A DNA stretch of 64,000 nt from Crambe crambe. Lineage: Eukaryota; Porifera; Demospongiae; Poecilosclerida; Crambeidae. The first letter of the stretch is position 1. Each line of letters begins with the position of its first letter. The DNA is taken from the NCBI GenBank assembly GCA_963924555.1, contig OZ004593.1:3964480-4028479 (forward strand). Reading direction: 5' to 3'. The notes beneath the pieces are model-generated. The model saw nothing but the letters and a program-made list of their open reading frames with translations. It did not search any database and was not told the origin of the DNA. Position numbers and translations under genes: made by a program. Below are positions 34,501 through 57,134 of this stretch, piece by piece.

Positions 34501-37241
34501 TGTCAAAGTTGTTGTTCTGACAAGATCCGTGAGGTAAGACTTATGCCAATGATACTATAATACACTAGGGCATAGATTTACTGTATGAAATAAATTTTAG
34601 CTCAGAACTTCAAGTTTATTCCTACAAATACTACTGTAGTGGTTAATGGGACTGTATTCCCTCTCACGCTTGATGGAATCAATTGCTGTTGCCCATTCAG
34701 GGGGAGGTCACTCCCATTCACTCTGTACATACGTTCGCGACCGGGGTCAAAGTGAGGTCAAGGGGTCAAGATCGATTTTCTGTTTCGGTCAAGGGTCAAG
34801 ATATGATTCAGGACTGAAGACTCCCCAATGCTGTTACCGAACAATTAAACAATTAAAGTAGCTAGATACATTTGCTTACATTTAGTCGTCTCTATAACTT
34901 ATTATAATAGCTTAGCAATAACCAAACTGCTGATCGATATCCGCGATCGATATATAATAGTATGACGTCATGATAATAATGACGTAATCATAATAAGTTC
35001 TGCTCTGCGTGCGCGCATGCTTGTAGAAGTTCTGTGAACTGCTGCTATATGTATTGTGTAGCTAGCTACATCTTGGTAGTCTTACATAAGATTCATGACT
35101 GATGATATCCTGTTGAATTATGGTGCTACTCACTTGAATGATTGTCTGTTAAATAATTGCAAGAGCAACACCTCACCCTCAGGAACCTCCCATGATAAAG
35201 GGATACCAAGGAGAATACAAAATGGCTACAACACTGGCCCCTTTCTTATGCATGCTTGCAGTTTCCGGAAATCCCGAATAAAATCAATTTTTTTTTCTTT
35301 TTTTTTTTTTTTTCCTCAATAATTGCGCATGCGTAATACGTAAGGTACCGGTCAAGAAAAGGTACAGTCAACAGGTCAAGGAACATTTCTGTGCACGGTC
35401 AAGAGGTCAACATAGATTTTTGGGTGGTCAAAAACCTTGACCCCGGTCGCGAACGTATGTACAGAGTGAATGGGAGTGACCTCCCCCTGCCATTTTCTGA
35501 TCAAAAGGCATGTAAATTTTAGCTACATGGAATAATAATGTTAGTTTTTGTATTAGCTGACATATATTGTCTCTAGCATTTGCAAGTGGTGTTAAAACTG
35601 TAATCCCTCTCCCAAGAAAAAGATTAACAATATTGCAACTGTATTAGTTATTTCAGGGAAAGGATAGAACAGTAAATGGAATTGGTGCATTTGTTTTCTA
35701 TACAATAGTCATCCTATGGAGATGGCAAGCTTACTATATTTCCCCCCTAATATCCATAGGGTCCACAGGACAGCTGACTGAGTTGAATTCTTGAGGTGGA
35801 TGGTGTCAAAATCCAACAACCAAAAGCTGGAACTATTGTAATAATGCTGATGAGGGAGAACTGAGCAGAAACTGGCGGATAACTTTGGGGCAAAATTATC
35901 TAGCTATAATAATAATGAATTTATGTCTAATTTTAATACCAAAAGTCATTCTGGCCTCTCTTTCAAATCAATCACATAAAATTAATGTATAATGAGCAAT
36001 GATAGGTACTCATAGTTATAATTACAAGGAAAAAAGTTATGAATAATTAATAACTTCCTTCCTCAGACTCTCCAACTTCACTCTCTGACTCTTCACTTCT
36101 TCAATACCTTCCCCTTAGCTTACTTGTACTATTCTGTGAGCTGTAGGGGCAGAACATCACTTTAACTGCCTTAAAAGGAGTGAATATTGATCTCCTTTCA
36201 CGGCCATGCGTGTGCGCATCTGTCAACATGCTTCGGTTGTGCAGTTCATTGGGCGTTTCCAATCCCGTAAAACCTCATATCTATGGATTTAGGAATCACT
36301 AGATTGTATTAATATTGAGGGGGCCTATATCCGCGCACTTGCGCACGGAAAAAAATTTGCCTGGCCACACCACGTTCTTGACCCAACCACACCCTAAAGC
36401 ACCCCCACTTTTTGGCCAAAATGCATCTGCGCACGGATATGAAAGTAGCATAAAATGTGACTTGTAATAGCAGAGCAGCTGACATCAGTAGCATAGCTTG
36501 CATGCGTGCAAGCCACATTTTTATTGTAGCTAGGTAATTTTTAGGGAGGGCCTGGGCCCATTCCTAGATCTGCGCTGCCACCGAGTGCTGTGTGCTATTG
36601 AACGTGCTGTCTCGGGTTCAATTCCTGAATTGGACACTCTTTCAATCTTTGAAAAATTTTCTAAAGAAGAAAATTCCGATGCCGGTGTCACAGTGGATTT
36701 GGTACCCCCAATATTTTGTACCCCCATGCAAAATATCCCAGTGGATTTTGTACCCCATGTAAAATATCGTATGGGGGTACATAATCCACTAGTGGATTTG
36801 GTAGGGGGGTACAAAAAATAGGGGGTGCTGAATTTCCTGTGACACTGGTACCGCACTGTAGACACAGCCATTTTTTATGGTCAGCTACCTATGGAAACTT
36901 GGAAAGATAAATGCTAGAATAGTAGCAATAGATTTTATAATGAATTTATTATTATTTGCAGCTGATATATTGGAAAAAATTGCTCCTAGATTTGATGAAC
37001 TTGGATTGACATATGAATGTCTTGGAGGTGGAAGAATTAAACATAACAACGATGCAAAGAGAATTAAAGTATATGGATATTCAGTAGTAAGTTATTTTCC
37101 ACTTAGCTACTTTTTAGCTATTATTATTATTTTCCTACACAGAGCTTTGGACAAGCCAATCATCAACTAACTTGTGATATATTATCAAATAAGTACAACT
37201 ATCCTAAAGAGAGTATCAGTTGGAGTAACTCTGGCTATTGA
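31538..37241 (+). CDS. PHPT1: 14-kDa phosphohistidine phosphatase (janus family)
   Basis: Removes phosphate from phosphohistidine in proteins; cytosolic. Exons 31538-31673, 36962-37086 and 37143-37241 join in phase (1, then 0) to 119 residues (human 125). Seen: FKYILIRL, then VRGFQWAEYHADI with the catalytic His (residue 45, split by intron 1 just after it), ECLGGGRI, KVYGYS, FGQANHQ and the final WSNSGY. All motifs of an active enzyme are kept. Intron 2 is 56 bp, whereas intron 1 is 5,288 bp and is a stack of transposons: 38-bp palindrome, two-ORF Tc1-like element, hairpin, nested TIR elements and a 163-bp MITE. The stop codon lies 121 bp before the direct repeat that flanks the giant inverted repeat. 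Confidence 0.97.
31785..31950. repeat. Dispersed repeat shared with the giant inverted repeat
   Basis: In PHPT1 intron 1, text such as GCTCCTGCAAGGGAGCGAGC, TATGGGACGTA, TATTCACGCACTGTTGTGAC and AAATATCGCTTTCAAACGGA is found again in the giant element: around 42790-42900 and 45720-45815 on the left, and mirrored on the right. The intron copy is one continuous piece, whereas the giant element holds two partial versions. Confidence 0.75.
31955..31992. mobile_element. 38-bp perfect palindrome with 7-bp target duplication
   Basis: The sequence from CATAGATATACTAGACTAC to its exact reverse complement has no loop. It is bordered by identical 7-bp direct repeats GCAGGAT (31948-31954 and 31993-31999). 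The end CATAGATAT and the 7-bp duplication are the same as in the TIR element at 7709-8986, so it looks like a transposon reduced to two joined terminal repeats. Confidence 0.8.
32165..33118 (+). CDS. Unrecognised transposon protein with PB1-like region and SHOCT-like tail
   Basis: This is a single-exon ORF inside the Tc1-like transposon. The first ATG in frame is at 32165 (317 residues); the frame is open back to 32105 but begins there with GTG. Regions in the 317-residue numbering: a Pro/Ser-rich linker (about 40-62); a PB1-like block from YSYKVRIINQ to ITFWCYSA (about 65-156) with VEELRDHLVNEF in the middle; a basic KRKRDE (165-170) and RKRPRRE (229-235) that look like nuclear localisation signals; charged helix 178-200; and a final segment, NYEQLKYLKQLNDDGVLNDK onward (about 282-317), resembling SHOCT oligomerisation motifs. 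The function is unknown. Its place between the TIRs beside the transposase suggests an accessory role, but passenger status is possible. Confidence 0.85.
   Translation: MSSSQHLVIPPNVLRQLQELQRVMGNKQSVTQSIVVGDSCAIPASPDPGPTPGASSAQEPTPITYSYKVRIINQNKKSDVKVWMIHQKKFRFKSVEELRDHLVNEFEDLIMQNDSFDVGFMEGSQQAKVWLENSEDLDRMYKLYPKGGNITFWCYSAQDTVSSSKRKRDEISTRRQDKEEEVDKIFKELREKHGKLECTKLRLWARMICGGLHDDYDEPPDMPAFNPDRKRPRRESLTEAFTGAATAICKVLSPHDPPSKGTESSLTGNSSPSKVITLRMKNYEQLKYLKQLNDDGVLNDKEYIEQKNDIMMTLRKL
33150..34148 (-). CDS. IS630/Tc1/mariner-family DD34E transposase
   Basis: Intact 332-residue ORF starting at ATG 34148. The N-terminus has a helix-turn-helix (about 16-50, SQNRIAENLCVDKSTVSRTL), then a second winged-helix-like part (70-125). 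The catalytic triad is visible: Asp158 in FIFIDETG, Asp245 in VVILDNCTVHH and Glu280 in LPPYSPDFNPLEE. The Asp-Glu spacing is 34 residues, as in Tc1-like DDE_3 enzymes. It converges with the plus-strand ORF 31 bp away. No intron or disruption is seen, so it is probably active or only recently silenced. Confidence 0.96.
   Translation of the reverse strand: MAFSCEKNRTAAYSDDLRWRIVWKYEAEDKSQNRIAENLCVDKSTVSRTLKVFHQTGQVSKKPYPKEKSSRKLTKPAQLLILQLVLDRPGIYLKEIQSELSSTLGINVEVPALCKYLHEMKFTRQKMSIRALQQDEFERQKFISDISLLSIDMFIFIDETGADNRNSIRRYGYSLRGKPPLTHQLLVRGDRVSAITCMSSSGILDAKMVRGSTDGDTFYDFVQTYLLPHLLPFNRSNPHSVVILDNCTVHHVPEVVKSIQDVGALVLFLPPYSPDFNPLEECFSKIKSILKSLDQNLSHITDLETLLYMSILEITQDDCMAWIDHPGIYNDS
34272..34371. 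mobile_element. 100-bp hairpin beside the Tc1-like element
   Basis: The inverted arms start AGTACT and contain GGTCACATGGACCAATCAGA and its complement, around a 20-bp loop. It begins 4 bp after the right TA of the two-ORF transposon, so it may be a separate minimal MITE that used an adjacent target. No duplication was identified. Confidence 0.65.
34399..36285. mobile_element. TIR transposon copy 2 (inverted), interrupted by another element
   Basis: This is the reverse complement of 7709-8986 at high identity. The right end is intact (CATAGATATGAGGTTTTACG on the minus strand, ending at 36285), while the left end has lost its last bases near 34399.  It lacks the SINE found in copy 1 and instead carries the element at 34698-35489. 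With inserts removed, both copies are close to 1.1 kb. It lies in PHPT1 intron 1. Confidence 0.88.
34698..35489. mobile_element. 792-bp TIR element with 5-bp target duplication, nested
   Basis: Inverted ends of about 50 bp start CAGGGGGAGGTCACTCCCAT. CCATT lies on both sides (34693-34697 and 35490-35494). The uninterrupted site GCCCATTTTCTGATC is present in the sister copy near 8690. Subterminal GGTCAAG heptamers are scattered near both ends, mostly in the same orientation, as expected for transposase-binding repeats. No ORF of note is inside. A poly-T run lies at about 35289-35315. The superfamily is uncertain. Confidence 0.87.
36684..36846. mobile_element. 163-bp hairpin MITE upstream of PHPT1 exon 2
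   Basis: The ends GTGTCACAG (36685-36693) and CTGTGACAC (36837-36845) are inverted, and the interior has further inverted GTACCCCC/GGGGGTAC blocks. It sits about 115 bp before the exon 2 acceptor. Confidence 0.65.
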
Positions 37242-37759
37242 ATAATAATTATCTTATCGTTCGGTAGATATCTAAGTATACTTATTACCTAACTGCTAAG
37301 TTCTGGTAGTTATTAAGTAGCATTAAATGTTCTAGAAAGAGAGCACTCTATGACTCAGGCGTTGCGAAATGTTCAGGTATTATACGTATCAGAAACGCGC
37401 GACTAGGCAGATATTATAATTATACGTATCAGAAACGCGCGACTAGAGGACACACTCGTAAGGACAAATTAACTCCGTCCTCGTCCTGAAGTATAACCTC
37501 ATCAACACTACATTCTAACTACTATACTGGAGGGAGGAGCTAGTATACTGGAGGATGCTCTATAGGTAGGTTTTAGCTGCATGGGTAGCTAGCTATTAGC
37601 CACTCCCTATATCAGAATGGACTGAGGACGTAATTATCAAATTCCAGCATCACTAAATGACCAGCTCTTTTGTTAGTACGGGACTATATTCCACCATTAC
37701 AGTTTTAATTGTACAGTTTAGTCAGCTCTGTTGTAAGTGATACTGGATTAATTAAAGAC

Positions 37760-39400
37760 ATGTTATATTTCACCTTTTAAAACGAGGTAGGGCCTCCATA
37801 AGCGTCACTCTAACAAGTGCAAACTAATCGTACTTAATTTCTTAGTCATCATCTGGCTCTGTTGTATTATCTGACTAAGGACACATCGGTATATTCTACC
37901 TTTTAAAACAAGGTATTCCCTCCCATGAATTGTCTCTAGCATAACTCTAACAAGTGCAAACTAATACAATTTTTTATTGTACAGATTTCTATTTCTTAGG
38001 CTCTATCGTAAGTGCTACCGGACTAAGGACACATTGATTATGTTCCACCTTTTAAAACAAGGTATTCCCTCCATAAATTGTCTCCACCATCACTATAACA
38101 AGTGCAAACGTTTATTGTACAGATTTCTATTTCTTAGTCATCCTCTGGCTCTATCGTAAGTGCTACTGGACTAAGGACATGTCCCTTTTAAAACAAGGTA
38201 TTTCCTCCATAAATTGTCTCTAGCATCACTCTAACAAGTGCAAACTAATCCTATTTTTTATGTAGAGATTTGTATTTCTTAGTCATTCACTGGCTCTATA
38301 GTAAGTGCTACCAGAATAAGATATATTCCACCTTTTAAAACAAGGTATTCCCTCCATAAATTGTCTCCAGCATAACTCTAACAAGTGCAAACTAATCCTA
38401 TTTTTTATTGCACAGATTTCTATTTCTTAGTCATCCTCTGGCTCTATCGTAAGTGCTACCGGACTAAGGACACATGATTATATTCCACCTTTAAAAGCAA
38501 GGTATTTGCTCCATAAATTGTCTCTAGCACCACTCTAACAAGTGCAAACTAATCCTATTTTTTGTTGTACAGATTTGTATTTCTTAGTCATCCACAGGAT
38601 CTATAGTAAGTGCTACCGGACTAAGGACACATCGATATATTCCACCTGTTAAAACAAGGTATTACCTCCATAAATAAGTCTCCACCATCACTGTAACAAG
38701 TGCAAACTAATCCTATTTTTTATTGTACAGATTTCTATTTCTTAGTTATCCTCTGGCTCTATTATAAGTGCTACCGGACTAAGGACACATCAATATATTC
38801 CACCTTTTAAAACGAGGTATTCCCTCCCATAAATTGTCTTCAGCATCACTGTAACAACAAGTGCAAACTAATCCTATTTTTGTTGAACAGATTTGTATTT
38901 CTTAGTCATCCTCTGGCTCTATTGTAAGTGCTACCGGACTAAGGACACATCGATATATTCCACCCTTTAAAATGAGGTATTTCCTACATAAATTGTCTGT
39001 AACAAGTGCAAACTAATCCTATTTTTTATTGTACAGATTTGTATTTCTTTGTCATCCTCTGGCTCTATTGTAAGTGCTACCGGACTAAGGACACATCCAT
39101 ATACGTATTCCACCCTTTAAAACGAGGTATTTCCTCCGTACATTATCTGTAACAAGTCCAAACTAATCCTATTTCATATTGTACAGATTTCTATTTCTTA
39201 GTCATCCTCTGGCTCTATCGTAAGTGCTACCGAACTAAGGACACATCGATATATTCCACCTTTTAAAATTTCTTAGTCATCCTATGGCTCTGTCGTAAGT
39301 GCTACTGAACTAAGGACACACCCGTATATTCCAAGCACAAGCTAATCCTATTTTTTACTGTACATATTCTTAGTCATCCTCTGGCTCTATCAGTGAACCG
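37760..39400 (+). repeat. Tandem array in left arm, about eleven units of 131-163 bp
   Basis: Each unit contains CCACCTTTTAAAAC, GTAACAAGTGCAAACTAAT-like text, ATTTCTTAGTCATCCTCTGG and TGCTACCGGACTAAGGACAC. Unit starts can be followed at about 37772, 37903, 38047, 38186, 38331, 38487, 38643, 38799, 38962, 39109 and 39257. Units vary by point changes and short deletions. The array is mirrored at 54140-55560. Confidence 0.88.
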
Positions 39401-39669
39401 TCACTAATGCAAATAGCCTTACCAGTGATTATTCAGATCAGTAAAAGTTTTGGATTAGCAATTTAATATATCTCATAATGGCTATGAATGTCGTTAAAGG
39501 GTAGGTTGGATTAATGGGGAAATGGATTAAAAGTAGGGTCCACTATAGAACTAGCCAGCTAATTAAAACATATACATGTAACCATAGTAGGTAGACGTGT
39601 TAATGCACTGCAGCAGCTGCATGGTATGTTTATGAATGTAATAATTATTTTATTTTCTAACAAACTCCC

Positions 39670-42076
39670 AATGATTACAAGAGTAACAGTGATGATGCTT
39701 TATTTAGCAGTCGGAAGCGTAAGCTTGAGAGTGAAGACGATGATGATCCAAAAGAAAATGATGATAACATTGAGATTATAAAAAATGACGGACAGGTAAC
39801 TGTAGATAAAGAAATCTTCAGGTGTCATAATAATGATGTATAATATAACATAGTGCTCTAAGAAGGAGAGGCCAAAACGGGATCTAGATGAGGCTCCACT
39901 CCCTGATCCTTTTCCTTTACCATTGCACTATCGTCGTGATATAGATGAAGCACTTGCAATCTAAAAAGTAGACTCAATATTTCATCACTCAAGTAGCTTA
40001 TGCCATGTTACGCATAAAGAAATTTCCTACCAACGAAGACTACATATGTGTGGCAAGACAAGTATCCTTTTTTTAAACCATCAATCGGAAAAGCTTAGTA
40101 ATTCATATTATACCAACTAGCTAAATTCTCAACTTAACCTTTTTTTTTACAGGATGCAATGAAACATAGTTTGATAAACAGGTTTAAAGAATTTCGACAT
40201 GAAAAAAAAACCTAGAATTTCTCCTGCAGAAAAAAGGGTATGTACAAGCTCTTAGGCATTCTGTTTTAGTATTCTTTTATGTTTGGTTTGATTTTATATG
40301 AGTAATGAGCCCTTTGTAAAAAACACTGGTCGAAATCAATCCCTTTTCATTAGATAACTCTTCTAAACAGCTGGTACAGAAGTCACCTGGTATCATGAAA
40401 TCTATCAGCCAACCACTTCCGCTACCTGGAGAGGAATATCACGGCACGCAAAAGCTCTTCAGGTGAGATTATACCTATGTATTAATATTATAAATAATAC
40501 TGTCATTTTTCATAGGTACAGTTTAAGAAGTCTAACAGAAATCCTCGTGTTGAGAAGGACCTCATGATGCGTTTTTTTGCCATGAGGAGAGCTGAGATTT
40601 TAGAGAATTCAATGGACCTCAATGAAATTTTCACCAAATTTCCATTTCTCCAGGAAGCTGATGAGGTATAATTATGATTGCTTATTGAGCTGGAGAAATG
40701 ATGTAGTTTTTTTGTTTGTTTGTTTGTTTTGTTTTAAGTTAATGTTAGAAATGCAGAGGATAATGGGGGGAAATTCTATGTGGGCAACTGCTAGGGAGCG
40801 CTGGAAATCTGTAATTCCACGCATCCTTGCTCGTGTGGAAGTGGAAGTACTGCATAATTCTTGCCTATCTCACGTTATGTTAGAAGCAAAGGTACTGAAG
40901 GTATGCCATGCAGTGCAGTTGAAACTGTTCTTTTAAATATTATTTCATCTTTAGGAAATTTGATTCTTTCATTGTTGATTTTGGCACTTCTAGTGCCTGA
41001 TGCAAGATGCAGGCCAGATCCTAATAAAATAATCGTTTTTGTCAAGGTATGTTAGTAAAATATTATGCCAAGCATTACCCAGTATCCCTAAAACAACTTT
41101 GTATTGGGCTTTATGTGTGACACTTGGTGGCCATAACCTTCAGTCTGATATGTTGGACTAAGTTGGTGTATAACCTTCAGTTAGAAATGTTGAGACTTAG
41201 TCGGTGTGTAACCTTCAGTCTGATGTGTTGGGTTTAGTCAGTGTATAACCTTCAGTCTGACTTGTTGGACATACCTTAAGGTGGGTATTATTGGCGACTT
41301 GTTGTTTTAGCGAATTTAGCGAGTAGACCTTTATTTGCTAATTGAAAATAGCTATTACACAAAGCTCAAAAAATAGCGAAAATTAATACCAGCCAAATAG
41401 TCTATCCCCTTAATGCTAAAATCAGTAGCCGCCAATGATACCCATCTTGAGGTAGTCGGTGTACTACCTTCAGTCTGAGATATTGGCATATGTTGAAGGT
41501 GTCAGTCTGATACACAGTGGACCCTCACTAATAGCCAGGGACCACCAGATTAGTGAAAGTTTCAGATAACTGAATGGGTGCTTTCTAATCCGCCTCGAAA
41601 TGGCCATGAATAATCTTGGTGTTTGTATGGGGGAGGATTCAGATTAGCTAGGGTCCCTTGGCTGGGTCATTGTTATTGCAAAGTTTATCAAGGGGAAGGG
41701 CTGATTTAGTTTTTCTTAGATGGTATCGTGATAATAATAAGGACAACTGTGTTTTAAAATGAATATTTGTACACAGGAATGTTCAAATTAATTTTGTTGA
41801 AGATGGAGAGAATCTCGCCCCCTATATTCTTCTTGTTGGAGATGTGAAATCACATTCTCAGGTCTTCCTGGTTATAGATTAAAAAAAGTAACTGAAATTA
41901 ACAATATAGACGACGTACCTTTTTGTTTAATGTCAGCTTTTTTTGTCTTCAACATTCAGTACCCTATGGGTTGTTCAAATTTTTATACTATTTTGGAAAT
42001 TTGTACCCTAGATTATCCTTTTGAAAAGGCCACTATTACTGTGAAACATTTTATGACTGCTATTAGTAATAATTAA
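39670..42076 (+). pseudogene. SAMD3-like multicopy gene in left arm (probably decayed)
   Basis: Coding segments read in order: SRKRKLESEDDDDPKEN...IIKNDGQ (to 39795); KKERPKRDLDEAPLPDP...HYRRDIDEALA (from 39854); FPTNEDYICVARQ (near 40030); DAMKHSLINRFKEFRHEKK (from 40154); SATWRGISRHAKALQ; VQFKKSNRNPRVEKDLMMRF...KFPFLQEADE (about 40516-40665); LMLEMQRIMGG...WKSVIPRI (from 40739); and a tail PYILLVGDVKSHSQVFLVI...FVFNIQYP ending at 42074-42076. The order and motifs resemble multicopy animal proteins often annotated as SAMD3-like or uncharacterised. Splice signals are mostly present, but the frame is not continuous throughout, so it may be a relic. The right arm has the mirror copy. Confidence 0.5.
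41117..41290 (+). repeat. Short tandem repeat of about 42 bp in left arm
   Basis: Four units contain AACCTTCAGTCTGATATGTT and GACTTAGTCGGTGTGTAAC-like text within the last intron of the SAMD3-like gene. The right arm (about 52320-52435) has only three, lacking the third left-arm unit. Confidence 0.8.
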
Positions 42077-43596
42077 CTGTTTCATCTTTATTCTTTTGTG
42101 TATGCGTTATTTTATTCTTTGAAAAAAAAATTCCCTTCGATAACACCTATTATGGCATAGAATCATGCTAATAAAAGTGTGTAGTGAACACCAGAAAACA
42201 CCTACTATATAGAGAGTGCCTATCATACTGTATAAAGTGTCTGACACACTATGTGAAGTATGCTAGCACACTGGCTACACACCAAAACTAGAGTAAGCAT
42301 TGCAACGGCATGAAAGGTGTGCATTACACGCTAAATTTTTTACAGTGATATAATTAAAATTTAATATTGATCCAGCTCTTCTTTATTTATTTATTTATTT
42401 TATTATTTTGGAAAGGTAGGATGGTTTTCCGTTATACGTCACAGTCGAATGGCCAGTGGTCCAAAACAGTACATTTATTGCAGATCCTGGAAGTTGCCCG
42501 TGCACCATAGTAATTACTAGAGAGTCAGCAAGCTTGCTGCGCTCGCTAGCTGAATTATAATGATATTTTGACCTTGGAAATAGATGTGATAGTTTATGAA
42601 GTGCTGTCTACAGCAAGTAGACAACTGGGCTATGATCTGAGGCCGAACCAAAAAAAAACAAAAAAAAAAAAAAAAAACAACAGAAAAAACAACCAACATA
42701 TTAATCTGCTTTCCTACTGGCAGTGACAAGTATCTGTTATAGTTTGCTAATCTCGCAGGCCAGAATTAATTCTAACTTCAAACTCTTTGGTTGCCATAGG
42801 GAACCCTTTGGGCCTGCCACAACAGTGCGCGAATAGTCTACGTCCCATACTCCTAACGCTTGCTGTGCTCGCTCCCTTGCAGGAGCTATTATAATGCTTA
42901 GTCCGGGTATCACAGATTCTGTCGCGGCGACAAAATATCCTAGGAAATTCCGTGGCAAGTAATCTAATCTCCTAGGATATTTCGTCGCCGCCAGGATATA
43001 TTGTCACTGCATATAAAGTAGCTATTGAAGGTGGTATAGCTATATCTGATTATACAAAGACAATCGCTAACTAATAAATTGCCCTAGAAATAAAAAACCT
43101 AGGTCGTTTCTGTCTTAGTGATGAATCTCTTCTATAATGATAATAGGATAATTTTTCACTAATTACGTTGGTTACTGTTTATAGGTGCATAAAAATCTCA
43201 AGCTTGTTAGCTATTCACCGAACTTTTTTTCCTATATAGCGTCTTGCTTAGCTAGAAAGTTAATATTGTTTGCAAGTGTACAGTGATGGAATATTTATAA
43301 CTGCTCTATATTGATGTGAATGCATGATCGAGCTTTATATAAATCAGTATTGGAAAATATTCTAGATAGTTACTTACGTATGATAGCTAGCTAGATGCTA
43401 CAGAGCAACATGTCTCTTAGCTACTATGGAAAGTAATTTTTTATACTATAACATAGCTCAATAGCTACATATGTAACGACCTAATAATAGAGGTAGATAA
43501 GTAATATCTTATTATACCACAGGAGATTTTATTACTAGCTATAGTAGGTAATAGCTAGTTAGCAATAGCTATAGTGTGAGCAACAATCCTATATTA

Positions 43597-43635
<39 letters not shown>
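43597..43635. repeat. (TTA)n in left arm, about 13 units
   Basis: This is the counterpart of the much longer run at 49812-50032 in the right arm. Confidence 0.9.
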
Positions 43636-43636
<1 letters not shown>

Positions 43637-43910
43637 TACTAGTAATAAGATGACGTTGAGATAAGTTACAAAAAAAAGAAGTTGGGGCAATTAGTCCAGG
43701 CTGAGGATCCACCAAGACTGGCCTAGCAACCAGGAAAGAATAAAAAAATATAAAAAATTGCCACAACAAAGAAATATAAAACAACAACAGAAAAAAGATT
43801 GGTCCATAAACTAGTCAGCTCGTTGAAATATGTAGTGTCTTTGGGAGTTGGAGACGTGAAGAACATATAGCTATCAGAGAGCAACAAAATATGAGATTTT
43901 GTCACTCTAT

Positions 43911-46132
43911 TGCATATGAAGAACATAGGAGAACAACAAATGCACTAAGAGATTTTACTTAACTTGAACTTTACTAAATTTATGGTGAGTGACTATAGAT
44001 CTATACTCCGCTATATGTTCTGGCTATGTAATATCCAATACAGTCATGCATGCAGTGCTGAGCAACAAAATATCCTATAAGAGATGTATCAAGTAGCTAC
44101 GTCTAATGTCTAAATGTCTAATATAGCTAGCTGCGACGAAGTATCCTAGGAGATTTGGTCGCTCTCGACAGAATTTCCTGCACTAACCTATGCGATGCGC
44201 TACAGTGGCAACGCTGCAAATATCCGATATTTAACCTGGTTGCTAGTGCTGCCTAGCCTTGGAGTCACAACAGTGCGTGAATAGTACGTCTAAACTCGCG
44301 AGACTACCTGTATGACAAAAGGCTGTAAATGCCGCGTTATGCCTACCCGGTCACATATAGAGAAAGCGCAAGTCAATAGAATTGACCTCGAAGTGCAACA
44401 TACATCTAACATATTCTTTAAACTCTGCTTAAGTTATCGCGAATCTCAATTTGCATCACAAGTGTGTGGCTCGCTCGCTCGCCCAATATTAAAGCCAAGC
44501 GCCTTTATGACAAAAGGCTGTAGAAACAATTTCATGCACATCATCCACGCGCAAGGCGCAAGTATTGCACGACACGTACCGTACATACGCCTCAGCTCGC
44601 TCGCTCGCCCGCAATGATTAAGTGCGCTCTTTCACGTTCGCAAATCTCTCGCGATAATTAAAAATTTTAAGCTAAATTCCATTTTCCATAGTTAATTTTC
44701 AAGCTTACACTCCCGCTATTACTCTTTCAACTTACTGAACCTCAGTTTTCAGACCGTAAAATTTAACACGTTATCTCTATTATTATACGATGCTGTATTG
44801 CGTGCATCACAGTTTTATGGCCGAATATCTAACTTTAGCGCATTAGTTGAAGCCTTGTAGTCTATATTAGTCAAAGTTCCAAACTTGGTCAGATTTTTTT
44901 CGAGGATTATAGTTTTGATCAATGAGACGACTCACTGAAACTGCTCCTACATAGAAAATTGTTCTACCGCTTTGTTTCGGATTTCCTTTACCATGGTCAT
45001 ATATAAGCTTTGTATCCCTTTTAAGAATTTTAAAATTGCTATCACGAGCCATTAATGCTCTTATGATCAATTGCGAACTTGAAAATTATCAATCAATTTT
45101 AAATAGAGGATCTGAAGGCCGAGTTTTTTTCTGTATCGCTTAGAATTTACAGTAAACTAGATGTTCGCTCACAACCGGAAAAAATTCATTGCCTACGCAC
45201 GAATGCGTACTAGAAATTAAACTATCAAAATTAGAGAAAAATGAGTTGGAATTAAATCTTGAGAGATTACGTTTGTACAATATATTTTAAAAATGTAAGT
45301 TTATACCATATGAAAAATTGTGGCACTGTTATACTGTAATAATAATAGGGATAACCTGTTAAATTTTACGGTCTGAAAACTGAGGTTAGCAAGTTGAACG
45401 AGTAATTCATAATTTAGAATAGTACATCACCTTTTTTTAAATTCTGATCTGGAAGAGCTAGATGTGCATGAAATTGTTTCAAGTCGAAGGTGCTTGGTTT
45501 CTCTATAGGCGCTTGGCTTATTAGGCGAGCGAGCGAGCCACACACTTGTGATGCAAATTGAGATTCGCGATAACTTAAGCAGAATTAGATTGTATGTTGC
45601 CAGGAATAGTAAATGGATGACTTCGAGGTCAATTCTATTGACACGCGCATATGTGACCGGGTAGGCATAACGCGGCATTAACAGCCTTTCGTCATTTTAA
45701 AGGTAGTCTCGCGTGGCCAGACGTACTATTCACGCACTGTTTTGACTCCAAGTCTAGCCAACACTCGCAAGCAGTATAAATATCGCTTTCAAACGGATGT
45801 TTGCAGCGTTGCCCCTGTAGCGCATCGCATAGGTCAGTTCAAGAAATTCTGTCGAGAGCGACCTAATCTCCTAGGATACATCGTCGCCGCCAGGATATAT
45901 TGTCGCAGCTAGCTATATATCAGACATTAGACGTAGCTACTTGATATACATCTCTTATAGGATATTTTATTGCTCGGCACTGCATGCATGACTATATTGA
46001 ATATTACATAGCCAGAGCATATAGCGGAGTACAGATCTCATATAGTCACTCACCATAAATTTAGTAAAGTTAAAGTTAAGTAAAATCTCCTAGTACATTT
46101 GTTGCTCTCCTGTGTTCTTCACATGCAATTGA
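43911..46132. mobile_element. Internal palindrome of the left arm
   Basis: Arms of roughly 800-900 bp (43911 to about 44790, and about 45335-46132) are reverse complements at about 90% identity. Shared landmarks are TTTACTTAACTTGAACTTTA, ATCCTAGGAGATT, CTATGCGATGCGCTACAG, GCCGCGTTATGCCTACCCGG and GTGTGTGGCTCGCTCGCTCG. The innermost 65 bp of each arm (44712-44780 and 45345-45412) look like terminal repeats of a 700-bp element: CTCAGTTTTCAGACCGTAAA. The 550-bp spacer holds two short ORFs of unknown kind (44867-45070 minus, and its overlap). The mirror copy is at 47319-49545. Confidence 0.75.
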
Positions 46133-46718
46133 TGGGAAATACGTCTAGTGATACGAAAGACGCAAGGTTTTTATAACCTCTGTCAGAATATTGGCATAGC
46201 TATATCCAAGATTTACAAATTCTCAATTCATTACACATAGTACTAGGGCAAAGTGCAAGTGTTCTTATGACTTTTTAAGAGTGAGCAAGAAGCAACCTGT
46301 AGTTTAGAGCTGATAGGCTTGTATTTCGCTGTTTAGTCATGTAAGTGGCAGGTAGCTGCATGCATATAGAAAGCTACCACAAAACAATTAGATAAGCTAG
46401 CGCCTACAATCCAACCTCAGGCGTAGGGCGCTACTGTTGCTTTACACGTACGTACGTACGTATTCCTGAGAGCGGAACTGAATTTAATAGTGTAATTTTA
46501 TTTTATCCATTAACTTTCTCTTTTTTATACGGAGTAAAGAACGCGCTTATGAATCAGTGCTGTAGCTAAGCTGCTCTTCTGCTTCACAGTGGTATAAGTT
46601 TGGTGGCCGAGTGACCTTGCAGAGCTACGTGAGTGTTCTGTTTCTAAAGACAGGCTCTGAAGTACGAGCTCAAGAAAAAGTGGGCAGAAATTTTTTTGCC
46701 TGGACAGATTTCTATTCA

Positions 46719-46728
46719 TACAAATAGC
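46719..46728. other. 10-bp loop at the centre of the giant palindrome
   Basis: TACAAATAGC separates CAGATTTCTATTCA from TGAATAGAAATCTG. The 100 bp on each side pair with a single mismatch, and the following 500 bp pair almost perfectly. Confidence 0.9.
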
Positions 46729-47318
46729 TGAATAGAAATCTGTCCAGGCAAAAAAATTTCTGCCCACTTTTTCTTGAGCTCGTACTTCAGAGCCTGTCTT
46801 TAGAAACAGAGCACTCACGTAGCTCTGCAAGGTCACTCGGCCACCAAACTTATACCACTGTGAAGCAGAAGAGCAGCTTAGCTACAGCACTGATTCATAA
46901 GCGCGTTCTTTACTCCGTATAAAAAAAGAGAAAGTTAATGGATAAAATAAAATTACACTATTAAATTCAGTTCCGCTCTCAGGAATACGTACGTACGTAC
47001 GTGTAAAGCAACAGTAGCGCCCTACGCCTGAGGTTGGATTGTAGGCGCTAGCTTATCTAATTGTTTTGTGGTAGCTTTCTATATGCATGCAGCTACCTGC
47101 CACTTACATGACTAAACAGCGAAATACAAGCCTATCAGCTCTAAACTACAGGTTGCTTCTTGCTCACTCTTAAAAAGTCATAAGAACACTTGCACTTTGC
47201 CCTAGTACTATGTGTAATGAATTGAGAATTTGTAAATCTTGGATATAGCTATGCCAATATTCTGACAGAGGTTATAAAAACCTTGCGTCTTTCGTATCAC
47301 TAGACGTATTTCCCATCA

Positions 47319-49545
47319 ATTGCATGTGAAGAACACAGGAGAGCAACAAATGTACTAGGAGATTTTACTTAACTTTAACTTTACTAAATTTATGGTGAGT
47401 GACTATATGAGATCTGTACTCCGCTATATGCTCTGGCTATGTAATATTCAATATAGTCATGCATGCAGTGCCGAGCAATAAAATATCCTATAAGAGATGT
47501 ATATCAAGTAGCTACGTCTAATGTCTGATATATAGCTAGCTGCGACAATATATCCTGGCGGCGACGATGTATCCTAGGAGATTAGGTCGCTCTCGACAGA
47601 ATTTCTTGAACTGACCTATGCGATGCGCTACAGGGGCAACGCTGCAAACATCCGTTTGAAAGCGATATTTATACTGCTTGCGAGTGTTGGCTAGACTTGG
47701 AGTCAAAACAGTGCGTGAATAGTACGTCTGGCCACGCGAGACTACCTTTAAAATGACGAAAGGCTGTTAATGCCGCGTTATGCCTACCCGGTCACATATG
47801 CGCGTGTCAATAGAATTGACCTCGAAGTCATCCATTTACTATTCCTGGCAACATACAATCTAATTCTGCTTAAGTTATCGCGAATCTCAATTTGCATCAC
47901 AAGTGTGTGGCTCGCTCGCTCGCCTAATAAGCCAAGCGCCTATAGAGAAACCAAGCACCTTCGACTTGAAACAATTTCATGCACATCTAGCTCTTCCAGA
48001 TCAGAATTTAAAAAAAAAGGTGATGTACTATTCTAAATTATGAATTACTCGTTCAACTTGGTAACCTCAGTTTTCAGACCGTAAAATTTAACAGGTTATC
48101 CCTATTATTATTACAGTATAACAGTGCCACAATTTTTCATATGGTATAAACTTACATTTTTAAAATATATTGTACAAACGTAATCTCTCAAGATTTAATT
48201 CCAACTCATTTTTCTCTAATTTTGATAGTTTAATTTCTAGTACGCATTCGTGCGTAGGCAATGAATTTTTTTCCGGTTGTGAGCGAACATCTAGTTTACT
48301 GTAAATTCTAAGCGATACAGAAAAAAAAACTCGGCCTTCAGATCCTCTATTTAAAATTGATTGATAATTTTCAAGTTCGCAATTGATCATAAGAGCATTA
48401 ATGGCTCGTGATAGCAATTTTAAAATTCTTAAAAGGGATACAAAGCTTATATATGACCATGGTAAAGGAAATCCGAAACAAAGCGGTAGAACAATTTTCT
48501 ATGTAGGAGCAGTTTCAGTGAGTCGTCTCATTGATCAAAACTATAATCCTCGAAAAAAATCTGACCAAGTTTGGAACTTTGACTAATATAGACTACAAGG
48601 CTTCAACTAATGCGCTAAAGTTAGATATTCGGCCATAAAACTGTGATGCACGCAATACAGCATCGTATAATAATAGAGATAACGTGTTAAATTTTACGGT
48701 CTGAAAACTGAGGTTCAGTAAGTTGAAAGAGTAATAGCGGGAGTGTAAGCTTGAAAATTAACTATGGAAAATGGAATTTAGCTTAAAATTTTTAATTATC
48801 GCGAGAGATTTGCGAACGTGAAAGAGCGCACTTAATCATTGCGGGCGAGCGAGCGAGCTGAGGCGTATGTACGGTACGTGTCGTGCAATACTTGCGCCTT
48901 GCGCGTGGATGATGTGCATGAAATTGTTTCTACAGCCTTTTGTCATAAAGGCGCTTGGCTTTAATATTGGGCGAGCGAGCGAGCCACACACTTGTGATGC
49001 AAATTGAGATTCGCGATAACTTAAGCAGAGTTTAAAGAATATGTTAGATGTATGTTGCACTTCGAGGTCAATTCTATTGACTTGCGCTTTCTCTATATGT
49101 GACCGGGTAGGCATAACGCGGCATTTACAGCCTTTTGTCATACAGGTAGTCTCGCGAGTTTAGACGTACTATTCACGCACTGTTGTGACTCCAAGGCTAG
49201 GCAGCACTAGCAACCAGGTTAAATATCGGATATTTGCAGCGTTGCCACTGTAGCGCATCGCATAGGTTAGTGCAGGAAATTCTGTCGAGAGCGACCAAAT
49301 CTCCTAGGATACTTCGTCGCAGCTAGCTATATTAGACATTTAGACATTAGACGTAGCTACTTGATACATCTCTTATAGGATATTTTGTTGCTCAGCACTG
49401 CATGCATGACTGTATTGGATATTACATAGCCAGAACATATAGCGGAGTATAGATCTCCTATAGTCACTCACCATAAATTTAGTAAAGTTCAAGTTAAGTA
49501 AAATCTCTTAGTGCATTTGTTGTTCTCCTATGTTCTTCATATGCA
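47319..49545. mobile_element. Internal palindrome of the right arm
   Basis: This is the mirror copy of 43911-46132, itself an inverted repeat with a 550-bp spacer. The short ORF 48383-48586 (plus, 67 aa, ...TIFYVGAVSVSRLIDQ...) is identical to 44867-45070 (minus). An 85-aa frame (48160-48417, minus) overlaps it. Neither is recognised, and conservation between arms is explained by the duplication alone. Confidence 0.75.
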
Positions 49546-49811
49546 ATAGAGTGACAAAATCTCATATTTTGTTGCTCTCTGATAGCTATATGTTCTTCAC
49601 GTCTCCAACTCCCAAAGACACTACATATTTCAACGAGCTGACTAGTTTATGGACCAATCTTTTTTCTGTTGTTTTATATTTCTTTGTTGTGGCAATTTTT
49701 TTTTATTTTTTAAATTCTTTCCTGGTTGCTAGGCCAGTCTTGGTGGATCCTCAGCCTGGACTAATTGCCCCAACTTCTTTTTTTGTAACTTATCTCAACG
49801 TCATCTTATTA

Positions 49812-49817
49812 CTAGTA

Positions 49818-49902
<85 letters not shown>

Positions 49903-49929
49903 TAATAATAATAATAATAATAATAATAA

Positions 49930-49976
<47 letters not shown>

Positions 49977-49978
49977 TG

Positions 49979-50031
<53 letters not shown>

Positions 50032-50032
50032 T
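49812..50032. repeat. (AAT)n in right arm, about 220 bp
   Basis: A long AAT run with a few GAT units, five to six times longer than its left-arm counterpart. The long open frames across it encode only Ile or Tyr runs and are not genes. Confidence 0.93.
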
Positions 50033-51522
50033 GTTGCTCACACTATAGCTATTGCTAACTAGCTATTACCTACTATAGCTAGTAATAAAATCTCCTGTGG
50101 TATAATAAGATATTACTTATCTACCTCTATTATTAGGTCGTTACATATGTAGCTATTGAGCTATGTTATAGTATAAAAAATTACTTTCCATAGTAGCTAA
50201 GAGACATGTTGCTCTGTAGCATCTAGCTAGCTATCATACGTAAGTAACTATCTAGAATATTTTCCAATACTGATTTATATAAAGCTCGATCATGCATTCA
50301 CATCAATATAGAGCAGTTATAAATATTCCATCGCTGTACACTTGCAAACAATATCAACTTTCTAGCTAAGCAAGACGCTATATGGGAAAAAAAGTTCGGT
50401 GAATAGCTAACAAGCTTGAGATTTTTATGCACCTATAAACAGTAACCAATGTAATTAGTGAAAAATTATCCTATTATCATTATAGAAGAGATTCATCACT
50501 AAGACAGAAACGACCTAGGAGGTTTTTTATTTCTAGGGAAATTTATTAGTTAGCGATTGTCTTTGTATAATCAGATATAGCTATACCACCTTCAATAGCT
50601 ACTTTATATGCAGTGACAATATATCCTGGCGGCAACGAAATATCCTAGGAGATTAGATCACTTGCCACGGAATTCCCTAGTATATTTTGTCGCCGCGACA
50701 GAATCTGTGACACCCGGACTAAGCATTATAATAGCTCCTGCAAGGGAGCGAGCACAGCAAGCGTTAGGAGTATGGGACGTAGACTATTCGCGCACTGTTG
50801 TGGCAGGCCCAAAGGGTTCCCTATGGCAACCAAAGAGTTTGAAGTTAGAATTAATTCTGGCCTGCGAGATTAGCAAACTATAACAGATACTTGTCACTGC
50901 CAGTAGGAAAGCAGATTAATATGTTTGTTTTTTTTGTTTTTTTTTGGTTCGGCCTCAGATCATAGCCCAGTTGTCTACTTGCTGTAGACAGCACTTCATA
51001 AACTATCACATCTATTTCCAAGGTCAAAATATCATTATAATTCAGCTAGCGAGCGCAGCAAGCTTGCTGACTCTCTAGTAATTACTATGGTGCACGGGCA
51101 ACTTCCAGGATCTGCAATAAATGTACTGTTTTGGACCACTGGCCATTCGACTGTGATGTATAATGGAAAACCATCCTACCTACTTTCCAAAATAATAAAA
51201 TAAATAAATAAATAAAGAAGAGCCGGATCAATATTAAATTTTAATTATATCACTGTAAAAAATTTAGCGTGTAATGCACACCTTTCATGCCGTTGCAATG
51301 CTTACTCTAGTTTTGGTGTGTAGCCAGTGTGCTAGCATACTTCACATAGTGTGTCAGACACTTTATACAGTATGATAGGCACTCTCTGTATAGTAGGTGT
51401 TTTCTGGTGTTTACTACACACTTTTATTAGCATGATTCTATGCCATAATAGGTGTTATCGAAGGGAATTTTTTTTTTCAAAGAATAAAATAACGCATACA
51501 CAAAAGAATAAAGATGAAACAG

Positions 51523-53876
51523 TTAATTATTACTAATAGCAGTCATAAAATGTTTCACAGTAATAGTGGCCTTTTCAAAAGGATAATCTAGGGTACAAAT
51601 TTCCAAAATAGTATAAAAATTTGAACAACCCATAGGGTACTGAATGTTGAAGACAAAAAAAGCTGACATTAAACAAAAAGGTACGTCGTCTATATTGTTA
51701 ATTTCAGTTACTTTTTTTAATCTATAACCAGGAAGACCTGAGAATGTGATTTCACATCTCCAACAAGAAGAATATAGGGGGCGAGATTCTCTCCATCTTC
51801 AACAAAATTAATTTGAACATTCCTGTGTACAAATATTCATTTTAAAACACAGTTGTCCTTATTATTATCACGATACCATCTAAGAAAAACTAAATCAGCC
51901 CTTCCCCTTGATAAACTTTGCAATAACAATGACCCAGCCAAGGGACCCTAGCTAATCTGAATCCTCCCCCATACAAACACCAAGATTATTCATGGCCATT
52001 TCGAGGCGGATTAGAAAGCACCCATTCAGTTATCTGAAACTTTCACTAATCTGGTGGTCCCTGGCTATTAGTGAGGGTCCACTGTGTATCAGACTGACAC
52101 CTTCAACATATGCCAATATCTCAGACTGAAGGTAGTACACCGACTACCTCAAGATGGGTATCATTGGCGGCTACTGATTTTAGCATTAAGGGGATAGACT
52201 ATTTGGCTGGTATTAATTTTCGCTATTTTTTGAGCTTTGTGTAATAGCTATTTTCAATTAGCAAATAAAGGTCTACTTGCTAAATTCGCTAAAACAACAA
52301 GTCGCCAATAATACCCACCTTAAGGTATGTCCAACAAGTCAGACTGAAGGTTACACACCGACTAAGTCTCAACATTTCTAACTGAAGGTTATACACCAAC
52401 TTAGTCCAACATATCAGACTGAAGGTTATGGCCACCAAGTGTCACACATAAAGCCCAATACAAAGTTGTTTTAGGGATACTGGGTAATGCTTGGCATAAT
52501 ATTTTACTAACATACCTTGACAAAAACGATTATTTTATTAGGATCTGGCCTGCATCTTGCATCAGGCACTAGAAGTGCCAAAATCAACAATGAAAGAATC
52601 AAATTTCCTAAAGATGAAATAATATTTAAAAGAACAGTTTCAACTGCACTGCATGGCATACCTTCAGTACCTTTGCTTCTAACATAACGTGAGATAGGCA
52701 AGAATTATGCAGTACTTCCACTTCCACACGAGCAAGGATGCGTGGAATTACAGATTTCCAGCGCTCCCTAGCAGTTGCCCACATAGAATTTCCCCCCATT
52801 ATCCTCTGCATTTCTAACATTAACTTAAAATAAAATAAACAAACAAACAAAAAAAGTACATCATTTCTCCAGCTCAATAAGTAATCATAATTATACCTCA
52901 TCAGCTTCCTGGAGAAATGGAAATTTGGTGAAAATTTCATTGAGGTCCATTGAATTCTCTAAAATCTCAGCTCTCCTCATGGCAAAAGAACGCATCATGA
53001 GGTCCTTCTCAACATGAGGATTTCTGTTAGACTTCTTGAACTGTACCTATGAAAAATGACAGTATTATTTATAATATTAATACATAGGTATAATCTCACC
53101 TGAAGAGCTTTTGCGTGCCGTGATATTCCTCTCCAGGTAGCGGAAGTGGTTGGCTGATAGATTTCATGATACCAGGTGACTTCTGTACCAGCTGTTTAGA
53201 AGAGTTATCTAATGAAAAGGGATTGATTTCGACCAGTGTTTTTTACAAAGGGCTCATTACTCATATAAAATCAAACATGAAAGAATACTAAAACAGAATG
53301 CCTAAGAGCTTGTACATACCCTTTTTTTCTGCAGGAGAAATTCTAGGTTTTTTTTCATGTCGAAATTCTTTAAACCTGTTTATCAAACTATGTTTCATTG
53401 CATCCTGTAAAAAAAAAGGTTAAGTTGAGAATTTAGCTAGTTGGTATAATATGAATTACTAAGGTTTTCCAATTGATGGTTTAAAAAAAGGATACTTGTC
53501 TTGCCACACACATGTAGTCTTCGTTGGTAGGAAATTTCTTCATGCGTAACATGGCATAAGCTACTTGAGTGATGAAATATTGAGTTAGATTGCAAGTGCT
53601 TCATCTATATCACGACGATAGTGCAATGGTAAAGGAAAAGGATCAGGGAGTGGAGCCTCATCTAGATCCCATTTTGGCCTCTCCTTAGAGCACTATGTTA
53701 TATTATACATCATTATTATGCACCTGAAGATTTCTTTATCTACAGTTACCTGTCCGTCATTTTTTATAATCTCAATGCTATCATCATTTTCTTTTGGATC
53801 ATCATCGTCTTCACTCTCAAGCTCACGCTTCCGACTGCTAAATAAAGCATCATCACTGTTACTCTTGTCATCATTG
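51523..53876 (-). pseudogene. SAMD3-like multicopy gene in right arm (mirror copy)
   Basis: This is the reverse-strand duplicate of 39670-42076 with the same segments and splice positions. It differs by scattered substitutions (for example YNYDYLL for YNYDCLL) and small indels. The same discontinuities are mostly shared by both arms, which suggests decay preceded or accompanied the arm duplication, or that arm-to-arm conversion keeps them alike. Confidence 0.5.
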
Positions 53877-54139
53877 GGAGTTTGTTAGAAAATAAAATAA
53901 TTATTACATTCATAAACATACCATGCAGCTGCTGCAGTGCATTAACATGTCTACCTACTATGGTTACATGTACATGTTTTAATTAGCTGGCTAGTTGTAT
54001 AGTGGACCCTACTTTAAATCCACTTCCCCATTAACCCAACCTACCCTTTAATGACATTCATAGCCATTATGAGATATATTAAATTGCTAATCCAAAACTT
54101 TTACTGATCTGAATAATCACTGGTAAGGCTATTTGCATT

Positions 54140-55560
54140 AGTGACGGTTCACTGATAGAGCCAGAGGATGACTAAGAATATGTGCAGTAAAAAATAGGAT
54201 TAGCTTGTGCTTGGAATATACGGATGTGTCCTTAGTTCAGTAGCACTTACAACAGAGCCAGAGGATGACTAAGAAATAGAAATCTGTACAATAAGAAATA
54301 GGATTAGTTTGCACTTGTTACAGACAATGTACGGAGGAAATACCTCATTTTAAAGGGTGGAATATATGGATGTGTCCTTAGTCCGGTAGCACTTACAATA
54401 GAGCCAGAGGATGACTAAGAAATAGAAATCTGTACAATAAAAAATAGGATTAGTTTGCACTTGTTACAGTGATGGTGGAGACAATTTATGTAGGAAATAC
54501 CTTGTTTTAAAAGGTGGAATATATCGATGTGTCCTTAGTCTGGTAGCACTTACGATAGAGCCAGAGGATGACTAAGAAATACAAATCTGTATGATAAAAA
54601 ATAGGATTAGTTTGCACTTGTTAGAGTGATGCTAGAGACAACTTGTTTTAAAAGGGATGTGTCCTTAGTCCAGTAGCACTTACGATAGAGCCAGAGGATG
54701 ACTAAGAAATAGAAACCTGTATAAATTAGTTTGCACTTGTTATAGTGATGGTGGAGACAATTTATGGAGGGAATACCCTAAGATGGAATATATCGATGTG
54801 TCCTTAGTCCGGCAGCACTTACGATAGAGCCAGAGGACGACTAAGAAATAGAAATCTGTACAAAAAAAAATAGGATTAGTTTGCACTTGTTAGAGTGATG
54901 CTGGAGACAATTTATGGAGGGAATACCTTTTTTAAAAATAATGGTGGAATATAATGATGTGTCCTTAGTCCGGTAGCAGAGCCAGAGGATAACTAAGAAA
55001 TACAAATCTGTACAATAAAAAAAAGGATTAGTTTGTACTTGTTAGAGTGATGCTGGAGACAATTTATGGAGGGAATACCTTTTTTTTAAATGGTGGAATA
55101 TAACGATGTGTCCTTAGTCCGGTAGCAGAGCCAGAGGATGACTAAGAAATACAAATCTGTACAATAATAAATAGGATTAGTTTGCACTTGTTACGGTGAT
55201 GGTGGAGACAATTTATGGAGGGAATATAAAATGTGGAATATATCGATGTGTCTTTAGTCCGGTAGCACTTACGATAGAGCCTAAGAAATAGAAATCTGTA
55301 CAATAAAAAATAGTATTAGTTTGCACTTGTTAGAGTGATGCTAGAGACAATTTATGGGAGGGAATACCTAAGGTGGAATATATCGATGTGTCCTTAGTCC
55401 TATAGCACTTACGACAGAGCCAGATGATGACTAAGAAATTAAGTACGATTAGTTTACACTTGTTAGAGTGATGCTTATTGAGGCCATACCTCGTTTTAAA
55501 AGGTGAAATATAACATCTCTTTAATTAATCCAGTATCACTTACAACAGAGCTGACTAAAC
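54140..55560 (-). repeat. Tandem array in right arm
   Basis: Inverted counterpart of 37760-39400 with the same 130-160-bp unit. The unit order and several deletions differ (some units lack the GCACTTACGATAGAGCC part), so the arrays have evolved separately. Confidence 0.87.
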
Positions 55561-56337
55561 TGTAGAATTAAAACTGTAATGGTGGAATATAGTCCCGTAC
55601 TAACAACAGAGCTGGTCATTTAGTGATGCTGGAATTTGATAATTACGTCCTCAGTCCATTCTGATATAGGGAGTGGATTTATTTAGCTAATAGCTAGCTA
55701 CCCATGCAGCTAAAACCTACCTATAGAGCAAGCATCCTCCAGTATTACTAGCTCCTCCCTCCAGTATAGTAGTATAGTAGTTAGAATGTAGTGTCGATGG
55801 GGTTACGAGGACGGAGTTAATGTGTCCTTAGGATCTAGGCTAGGAGTACGAGTAGTATAGTGTGTCCTAATAGTCGCGCGTTTCTGATACGTATGCTGCG
55901 AAATGTTAGGGTACACAATACTTTCACTCTTTCTTATTGAAGGTGAGCTGGTAAGCTTAGCTAGCGTATTTTATGGTTAGCCAAATACTGGCTAGCTGTA
56001 GCTAGCTCACTGCATCGTAATACTGAACTGGGCTTTGCCACAATGGCATTTTGATACCCACAACACAACCCATACTAGCTACTTGCAACTCTGAACTGTA
56101 GCCTTTCTCTCTACCCTCCCATCTCAAGAAACATTGACTTGTTACGTATTAGTCTCACGAGCCAGACGAATTGGGTCTGGCATGCACTATGTGCAAATTC
56201 TCACTCGAATGTAAGAATGCCATGGAGTGTATACTGGTGACATATGAGAGAAAGAGAGAGAAAAAAAAATTATGTAGTGTAAGAGCACAGTGTTGTTGAA
56301 TGCTAGTAATCGAAATGAGATTGTGTTAGTGATTGAC

Positions 56338-57007: not shown

Positions 57008-57134
57008 TGTACTTCTGTGACTCTGCCTGAGGAAGGAAAATTATCGTACCTTTTTATTCATCTACCTTCTTATTTATGGTCAGTGGGTATAAATTCCACT
57101 CTATGTTTGTCCTCACACAGGCATTGCATACTCA

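Follow-up and report, generated by a model that had tools for sequence, protein, structure and literature searches.

How an 18.5-kb palindrome arose in a sponge genome is the question raised by the stretch of Crambe crambe DNA analyzed here, 64,000 nucleotides of contig OZ004593.1 (assembly GCA_963924555.1, positions 3,964,480 to 4,028,479 of the forward strand), called the window below. Contigs of the assembly are labeled C1, C2 and so on, and the palindrome of the window is the C16 copy. With a probability of about 0.6 it is a non-autonomous transposon of the foldback type, very large and mobilized in trans, the arms of which have since been homogenized in patches. The case for this reading is made by the anatomy of the element, by the direct repeats at its ends, by the recurrence of its terminus in the genome and by the patchy identity of its arms.

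Anatomy of the element

The inverted structure spans 18,523 bp (window 37374-55896). Its parts, and the direct repeats abutting it, are the following:

37363-37373, plus strand: TGCGAAATGTT, left copy of the putative target-site duplication (TSD)
37374-46718: left arm, 9,345 bp
37374-37724, plus: left terminus T (CAGGTATTATACGTATCAGAAACGCG...), its sharp outer edge common to two copies on C1 and to the C11 and C17 copies
37725-39268, plus: minisatellite zone of the left arm, unit size about 150-157 bp; the array called at 38184-39268 has 7.1 units
39269-46718, plus: left arm interior, with relatives on C1, C10, C11 and partly C3, without detectable coding
41271-41455, plus: short repeat nested in the left arm, dispersed copies on many contigs
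42914-44180, plus: repeat A, left copy, one zone per contig on 12 contigs
43906-44542 (plus) and 45461-46132 (minus): inverted pair inside the left arm, 82%
46719-46728: 10-bp loop TACAAATAGC, centre of the palindrome
46729-55896: right arm, 9,168 bp, inverted copy of the left arm
46729-54211, minus: right arm interior, inverted copy of the left interior
49273-50706: repeat A in the right arm
54212-55551, minus: minisatellite zone of the right arm, with called arrays covering 54322-54641 and 54826-55369
55552-55896, minus: right terminus; its sequence, seen from the outside, is GCATACGTATCAG, and the bases with which the left terminus starts, CAGGTATT, are absent
55897-55907, plus: TGCGAAATGTT, right copy of the putative TSD

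From the outside inward, each arm is made up by terminus T (about 350 bp), the minisatellite zone and an interior of about 7.5 kb. Long inverted repeats account for most of the element and include tandem subrepeats, as in foldback-type elements; units of about 149-157 bp are called in both ends. The arms differ in trinucleotide runs, with 71 TAA units at 49819-50031 in the right arm vs. about 15 TAT units at 43592-43635 in the left. The inverted structure of 18.5 kb, with arms of about 9.2 kb and a 10-bp loop, had been described in an original prediction made from the window alone, and is confirmed.

The 11-mer TGCGAAATGTT occurs only twice in the window, at 37363 and 55897, both times on the plus strand, and the two copies abut the element ends in direct orientation. 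An exact 11-mer abutting two random edges of the window was obtained in none of 200,000 draws, and in 6 of 200,000 when 5 bp of slack were allowed. The direct repeat, which the original prediction had also placed outside both ends, is not a product of chance. An empty site, by which the insertion was to be verified, is missing in this assembly, where the flanks, joined into one query, hit nothing but either side of the insertion (2 of 2 candidates).

Recurrence of the terminus

The terminal 201 bp of the element have 23 matches in the genome. T ends were monitored with a 456-bp probe, and reside on C1, C3, C5, C10, C11, C13, C16 and C17 (all 19 first-look candidates scored). The sharp outer edge CAGGTATTATACG is found at the left end of the C16 copy, on C1 near 4,677,612 and 4,692,833, on C11 near 4,370,866 and in the mirror copy, and on C17 at 6,702,561. 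A defined terminus is present at several unrelated sites, in different flanks, as expected for a foldback-type element; a genome search with the terminus, proposed along with the prediction, has yielded further copies. The T edge is truncated on C10, altered at the right end of the C16 copy, on C1 near 4,680,868 and on C5 at 8.454 Mb, and degraded on C13. Relatives of the arm were found on C1, C10, C11 and, in part, C3 (best 40 of 96 arm-segment candidates). No large inverted repeat was seen in the T units on C3, C13, C17 and at 5.09 Mb of C1.

Identity of the arms

The alignment of the two C16 arms pairs 8,932 bases, of which 160 are substituted, and has a further 649 columns with gaps. Substitutions amount to 4.3-8.8% in the outer 2 kb, values that are rough because the alignment of the minisatellites is uncertain, to 1.2-2.0% at 39374-40873, 0-0.4% at 40874-42373 and 0.8-2.0% at 42374-43873; of the 2,845 bases aligned between 43874 and the loop, only 2 are substituted. 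The 49 substitutions found in 7,261 aligned bases of the 39374-46718 region are unevenly distributed (chi-square 57.9 over 15 bins, a value as large being reached in none of 200,000 simulations). Identity is patchy, and the C16 arms have therefore probably been re-copied from each other.

In ungapped comparisons of the arm segment, the left and right C16 arms are sisters (99.8% identity, support 1.000). The two C11 pairs are 99.4% and 100% identical, the C10 arms 92.4%, and copies on different contigs 91.0-94.7%. BLAST gives 90% identity for the pair of C16 termini, which are 7% apart by substitution; they are nearly as diverged as C16 and C11 termini (89% identity), so that the two ends seem older than the near-identical interior. 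The pattern is probably that of old ends and of an interior re-copied in patches by gene conversion between the arms.

Other large palindromes

Relatives of the window element make up larger palindromes on C11 and C14. In the C11 palindrome, arms of 13.2 kb (4363609-4376828 vs. 4380829-4394014, 99.64% identity) flank a core of 4.0 kb, and each arm includes a nested T-to-T junction of about 430 bp. The C14 palindrome (3158895-3196197, 37.3 kb) features arms of 17.5 kb (3158895-3176401 vs. 3178692-3196197, 99.914% identity) and a core of 2.3 kb; its sequence is mostly unlike that of the window element. The C14 arm hosts a repeat (L045:5480-6150) that measures about 670 bp, has short inverted ends and resembles miniature inverted-repeat transposable elements (MITEs); at least 39 copies of it at 95-96% are found genome-wide (best 39 of 3052 candidates). 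C12 carries an inverted pair of 1.8 kb at 99.5%. The layout of T, arm and inverted arm is found also on C10, and is old, because the C10 arms are only 80-82% alike by BLAST.

Loci of the repeat zones described in the next section, chosen by sequence match and not at random, were self-compared on 11 contigs, and arms longer than 5 kb at 97% identity or more were found on three of them. Only diverged or short inverted repeats were seen at the C1, C5, C6, C9, C19 and C20 loci, in the 4-22 kb compared. Several inverted pairs of repeat B (the outer arm of the C14 palindrome) lie at C17:5734609-5783056, one pair with equal scores, which suggests a further large palindrome.

These data bear on the alternative that survives best, unlikely as we hold it to be. 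Fold-back replication or repair may have produced an inverted duplicate of half an element, with no transposition of the unit, the 11-bp repeat marking a staggered break filled with captured DNA. In line with such an origin, the C11 and C14 palindromes are larger than the C16 element, near-perfect and free of direct repeats. Both C11 arms carry the same dispersed-repeat insertion at the same place (query 1018-2517); these arms have therefore been copied, the palindrome being formed or converted after that insertion. Flanking DNA at one terminus is common to C1 and C10, and blocks have therefore been copied between chromosomes as well. The divergence of the C16 termini, however, approaches that between C16 and C11, and direct repeats that abut the element exactly, in otherwise different flanks, fit integration better.

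Zoning of repeats along contigs

For the clustering test, sites within 150 kb were merged and same-contig pairs within 1 Mb counted, site positions being compiled by hand. The candidates scored were the best 40 of 294 for repeat A, 40 of 1477 for B, 40 of 96 for the arm segment and 40 of 454 for a control repeat of 42 copies, and all of them for T (19) and for Mutator-like elements (MULEs; 96). Left out of the count were rows on C2, C7, C8 and C21, contigs that are small or lack a known length (including B at 3.26 Mb of C21 and single B module matches on C8), short fragments, two short T minisatellite matches (C2 71,707; C1 5,132,329) and, for B, a dispersed module at query 311-885 (C9 8.45, C16 3.87, C10 6.93, C14 1.72 and C21 3.25 Mb). 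The dispersed repeat nested in the arm segment was moved to the controls, and one MULE row below the cut-off (C13) was retained.

Among the candidates scored, the 17 sites of repeat A are spread over 12 contigs, each of which has a single zone; all five same-contig pairs lie within 1 Mb, vs. 1.1 expected (p ~4e-4). The edges of repeat A are not sharp, and an element with clean ends was not recognized in it. Clustering of B (2 of 2 pairs, p 0.057) and of T (2 of 2, p 0.040) is weak when either is taken alone, and the arm segment, found at one site on each of five contigs, forms no same-contig pairs and is uninformative. Pooled, the four families give 14 of 18 pairs vs. 4.0 expected, at a p of ~2e-4 that is optimistic because the families are partly linked in the same blocks. 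No clustering was observed for the 42-copy repeat (10 of 39 pairs vs. 9.0 expected) or for MULE matches (9 of 37 vs. 8.4). A third control, a short dispersed repeat, is weakly clustered (6 of 10 pairs vs. 2.6 expected, p 0.026), and some of the clustering may therefore be general.

A and B, both parts of the C14 arm, are at most 14 kb apart on seven of the eight contigs that they share, and 160 kb apart on the eighth. Most zones are located at 0.37-0.71 of the contig span, and that of C17 at 0.85-0.88; exceptions are T on C5 (0.89) and C17 (0.99), and an arm fragment on C3 (0.27). A or B is among the matches listed on 16 contigs, C21 included, while C13 has T only, and C8 single B modules only. 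Several contigs have two or more sites of the zoned repeats. The C14 inner arm failed as a zone probe, the dispersed MITE-like repeat filling the candidates scored (best 39 of 3052). The zoning suggests a pericentromeric or other special domain.

A further reading takes the palindromes as a structural component of the centromeres: their arms would flank a core and be held similar by recombination, the arrangement found in Candida tropicalis or fission yeast. This we regard as improbable. The zoning of repeat A, the proximity of A and B on shared contigs and the mostly mid-contig sites are in its favor, and identities within and between loci are much like those of C. tropicalis in the part of PMC4741521 available. 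Yet the window element ends 1.2 kb from a GBP-like frame and is located 0.4 Mb from the other A site on its contig, and neither the T site of C5 (8.5 Mb) nor that of C17 (6.7 Mb) is within the local A/B zones. A core with near-identical inverted arms is found on C11, C14 and C16, and as the 1.8-kb pair on C12, not at each site; the C1, C5, C6, C9, C10, C19 and C20 loci have only diverged or short inverted repeats in the parts compared. The weak values of B and T, the pairless arm segment and the control at p 0.026 speak in the same sense.

Coding content, flanks and transposase search

The element contains 18 stop-to-stop frames of at least 80 aa, the longest of 140 aa. Pfam searches with eight of these frames, and with all six frames of 39201-46640 (stops as X), identified no family, and an Rfam search of 37000-56300 gave no match. 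When arms are compared between copies, only 14-24% of indels have a length divisible by three, and a signal of codon phase is not apparent. Genes in the arms, considered as candidates, were rejected for the lack of Pfam matches and of a coding signal between copies; the palindrome is non-coding DNA without supported genes. Of the original prediction, a Foldback-like element with gene-bearing arms, the anatomy with its tandem subrepeats and the direct repeats of insertion type are supported, as is the presence of more copies of the terminus in the genome; the genes are not supported.

The flanks have frames that look like host genes. In the left flank, a frame at 31204-31668 (minus) matches the Syntaxin-18 N-terminal family below the gathering cut-off; right-flank frames match GBP (57093-57503), 1.2 kb from the element end, and PDZ (61899-62339). 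A DDE_3 transposase frame (33153-34199, minus) lies beside a frame of 342 aa (32090-33115, plus) with no Pfam match, and adjacent frames of the C3 T unit resemble this pair by eye. Window regions 35524-36285 and 7709-8460 are an inverted pair (92%) of a dispersed repeat, which has at least 42 long genome matches counting itself (best 40 of 454 candidates); it looks young, because the other copies are 93-98% alike.

No transposase was detected by Pfam in the arm interior, and none was found with T ends among 54 MULE matches (53 over the cut-off), the nearest of which is about 260 kb from a T end. The 11-bp duplication, seen in one copy only, falls in the range of MULEs (8-11 bp); the element is not filed as a MULE because a transposase with its ends was not found. 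A MULE partner with diverged ends may exist. The T units on C1 (5.09 Mb), C3, C13 and C17 were inspected for an autonomous partner; by eye, a DDE_3-like frame adjoins the C3 unit. The plus strand of locus L041, beside the C17 copy, gave no Pfam match. An open frame of 186 aa about 4 kb inside the C17 T unit (L041:2482-3042), also with no Pfam match, recalls what we take, by eye only, to be KDZ-type transposases. Three MULE matches with equal score on C7 (14218, 54174, 94126), spaced by about 40 kb, suggest a 40-kb tandem repeat.

Proposed origin of the element

In the foldback transposon proposed here, the inverted repeats would be the whole element. A transposase acting in trans, as a best guess of the Mutator type, would have made a staggered cut of 11 nt in a target between host genes and placed the element there, and the filled gaps of this cut would be the 11-bp direct repeats. 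The Mutator type is suggested by TSD length, long inverted ends and minisatellite, as argued for the Tetris element discussed below. After insertion, the arms would pair and copy each other in patches, most fully around the centre, minisatellites and termini retaining older differences. The family would reside mainly in favored, mostly mid-contig zones, perhaps pericentromeric, in which related pieces would give rise to large palindromes.

Several observations weigh against this origin. The target duplication has so far been found in the window copy only. Neither the C11 nor the C14 palindrome has one, and none is visible by eye at C1; around the C17 copy, nothing longer than 7-mers came up when a second flank repeat was looked for. 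The right terminus of the window element differs from the left one, and the C10 copy lacks a right terminus. No transposase accompanies the T ends, either among MULE matches or, by Pfam, on the strand searched beside the C17 copy. Regional mutation rates could in part account for the uneven substitutions, and DNA captured at a staggered break would leave direct repeats equally well. An assembly artefact, two haplotypes (the alternative named in the original prediction) or a chimeric read joined head to head, is very improbable: arms this alike are typical of fold-back chimeras, but the two flanks differ and each 220-bp flank occurs once in the assembly (2 of 2 candidates), the left end coincides with a terminus sharply seen elsewhere, tandem and trinucleotide repeats vary in copy number between the arms, which are also 160 substitutions apart, and C10 has the same layout with old arms.

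Relation to known systems

Galileo elements have a 7-bp TSD and a P-type transposase, neither of which is seen in the window element. In general terms, the latter shares with Galileo, a foldback of the P superfamily, the nature of a foldback-type DNA transposon with long inverted ends (PMC4168063 in part). The following comparisons refer to the available parts of the papers cited.

Tetris, a foldback of Drosophila virilis, is apparently non-autonomous, has tandem subrepeats of about 220 bp and direct repeats of 8-10 bp, is denser at some heterochromatic sites, and was assigned to Mutator from its TSDs (PMC4079207). The window element resembles Tetris in its non-autonomous foldback anatomy, in the tandem subrepeats (about 150 bp) inside the inverted ends and in the similar length of direct repeats. 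Unlike Tetris, it lacks a middle domain, the inverted repeat occupying all of the 18.5 kb up to the 10-bp loop, has the 11-bp repeat in one copy only, and carries other repeats nested in the arms.

MULEs have TSDs of 8-11 bp, and many have long inverted ends; Rehavkus elements, found in arthropods and annelids, have a minisatellite before the 3' terminal inverted repeat (TIR), a 9-bp TSD and TIRs of 26-400 bp (PMC6446971, PMC5225508). TSD length, long inverted ends and minisatellite are shared by the window element, which differs in having no transposase, and no listed MULE match near a T end.

Arms within one C. tropicalis centromere average 97% homology, and identity between centromeres is 82% (PMC4741521). 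As in those centromeres (PMC4741521, PMC7292649), the arms analyzed here are near-identical within a locus and more diverged between chromosomes, and tandem groups vary in copy number. Here, however, the loop is of 10 bp (the core 4.0 kb in C11, 2.3 kb in C14) vs. a core of 2-5 kb, the window element has an insertion signature at its ends, and several contigs have more than one site. The likeness is one of sequence alone, a resemblance and not a test.

No description of such structures in sponges or early-branching animals was found among the leading open-licence literature results; in the part of the Ephydatia muelleri genome paper seen, the centromere passage concerns a split scaffold (PMC7385117).

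Foldback elements are already known, and this one is extreme, being 18.5 kb long, palindromic to the centre, equipped with an insertion signature and with arms apparently re-copied. Judged by its anatomy, it would work like Tetris-type elements; length, palindromic centre, patchy homogenization and zoning of the parts set it apart from them. Instability is expected of palindromes this large, so that those persisting at several loci offer a natural test of palindrome maintenance. A more speculative and doubtful extension is that the (peri)centromeres of this animal are built from giant palindromes, which foldback transposons would seed and gene conversion would homogenize, the inverted repeats serving as centromeric platform, in an animal counterpart of fission-yeast-like centromeres. 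If the zones are centromeric, they would provide a sequence handle on the centromeres of this animal.

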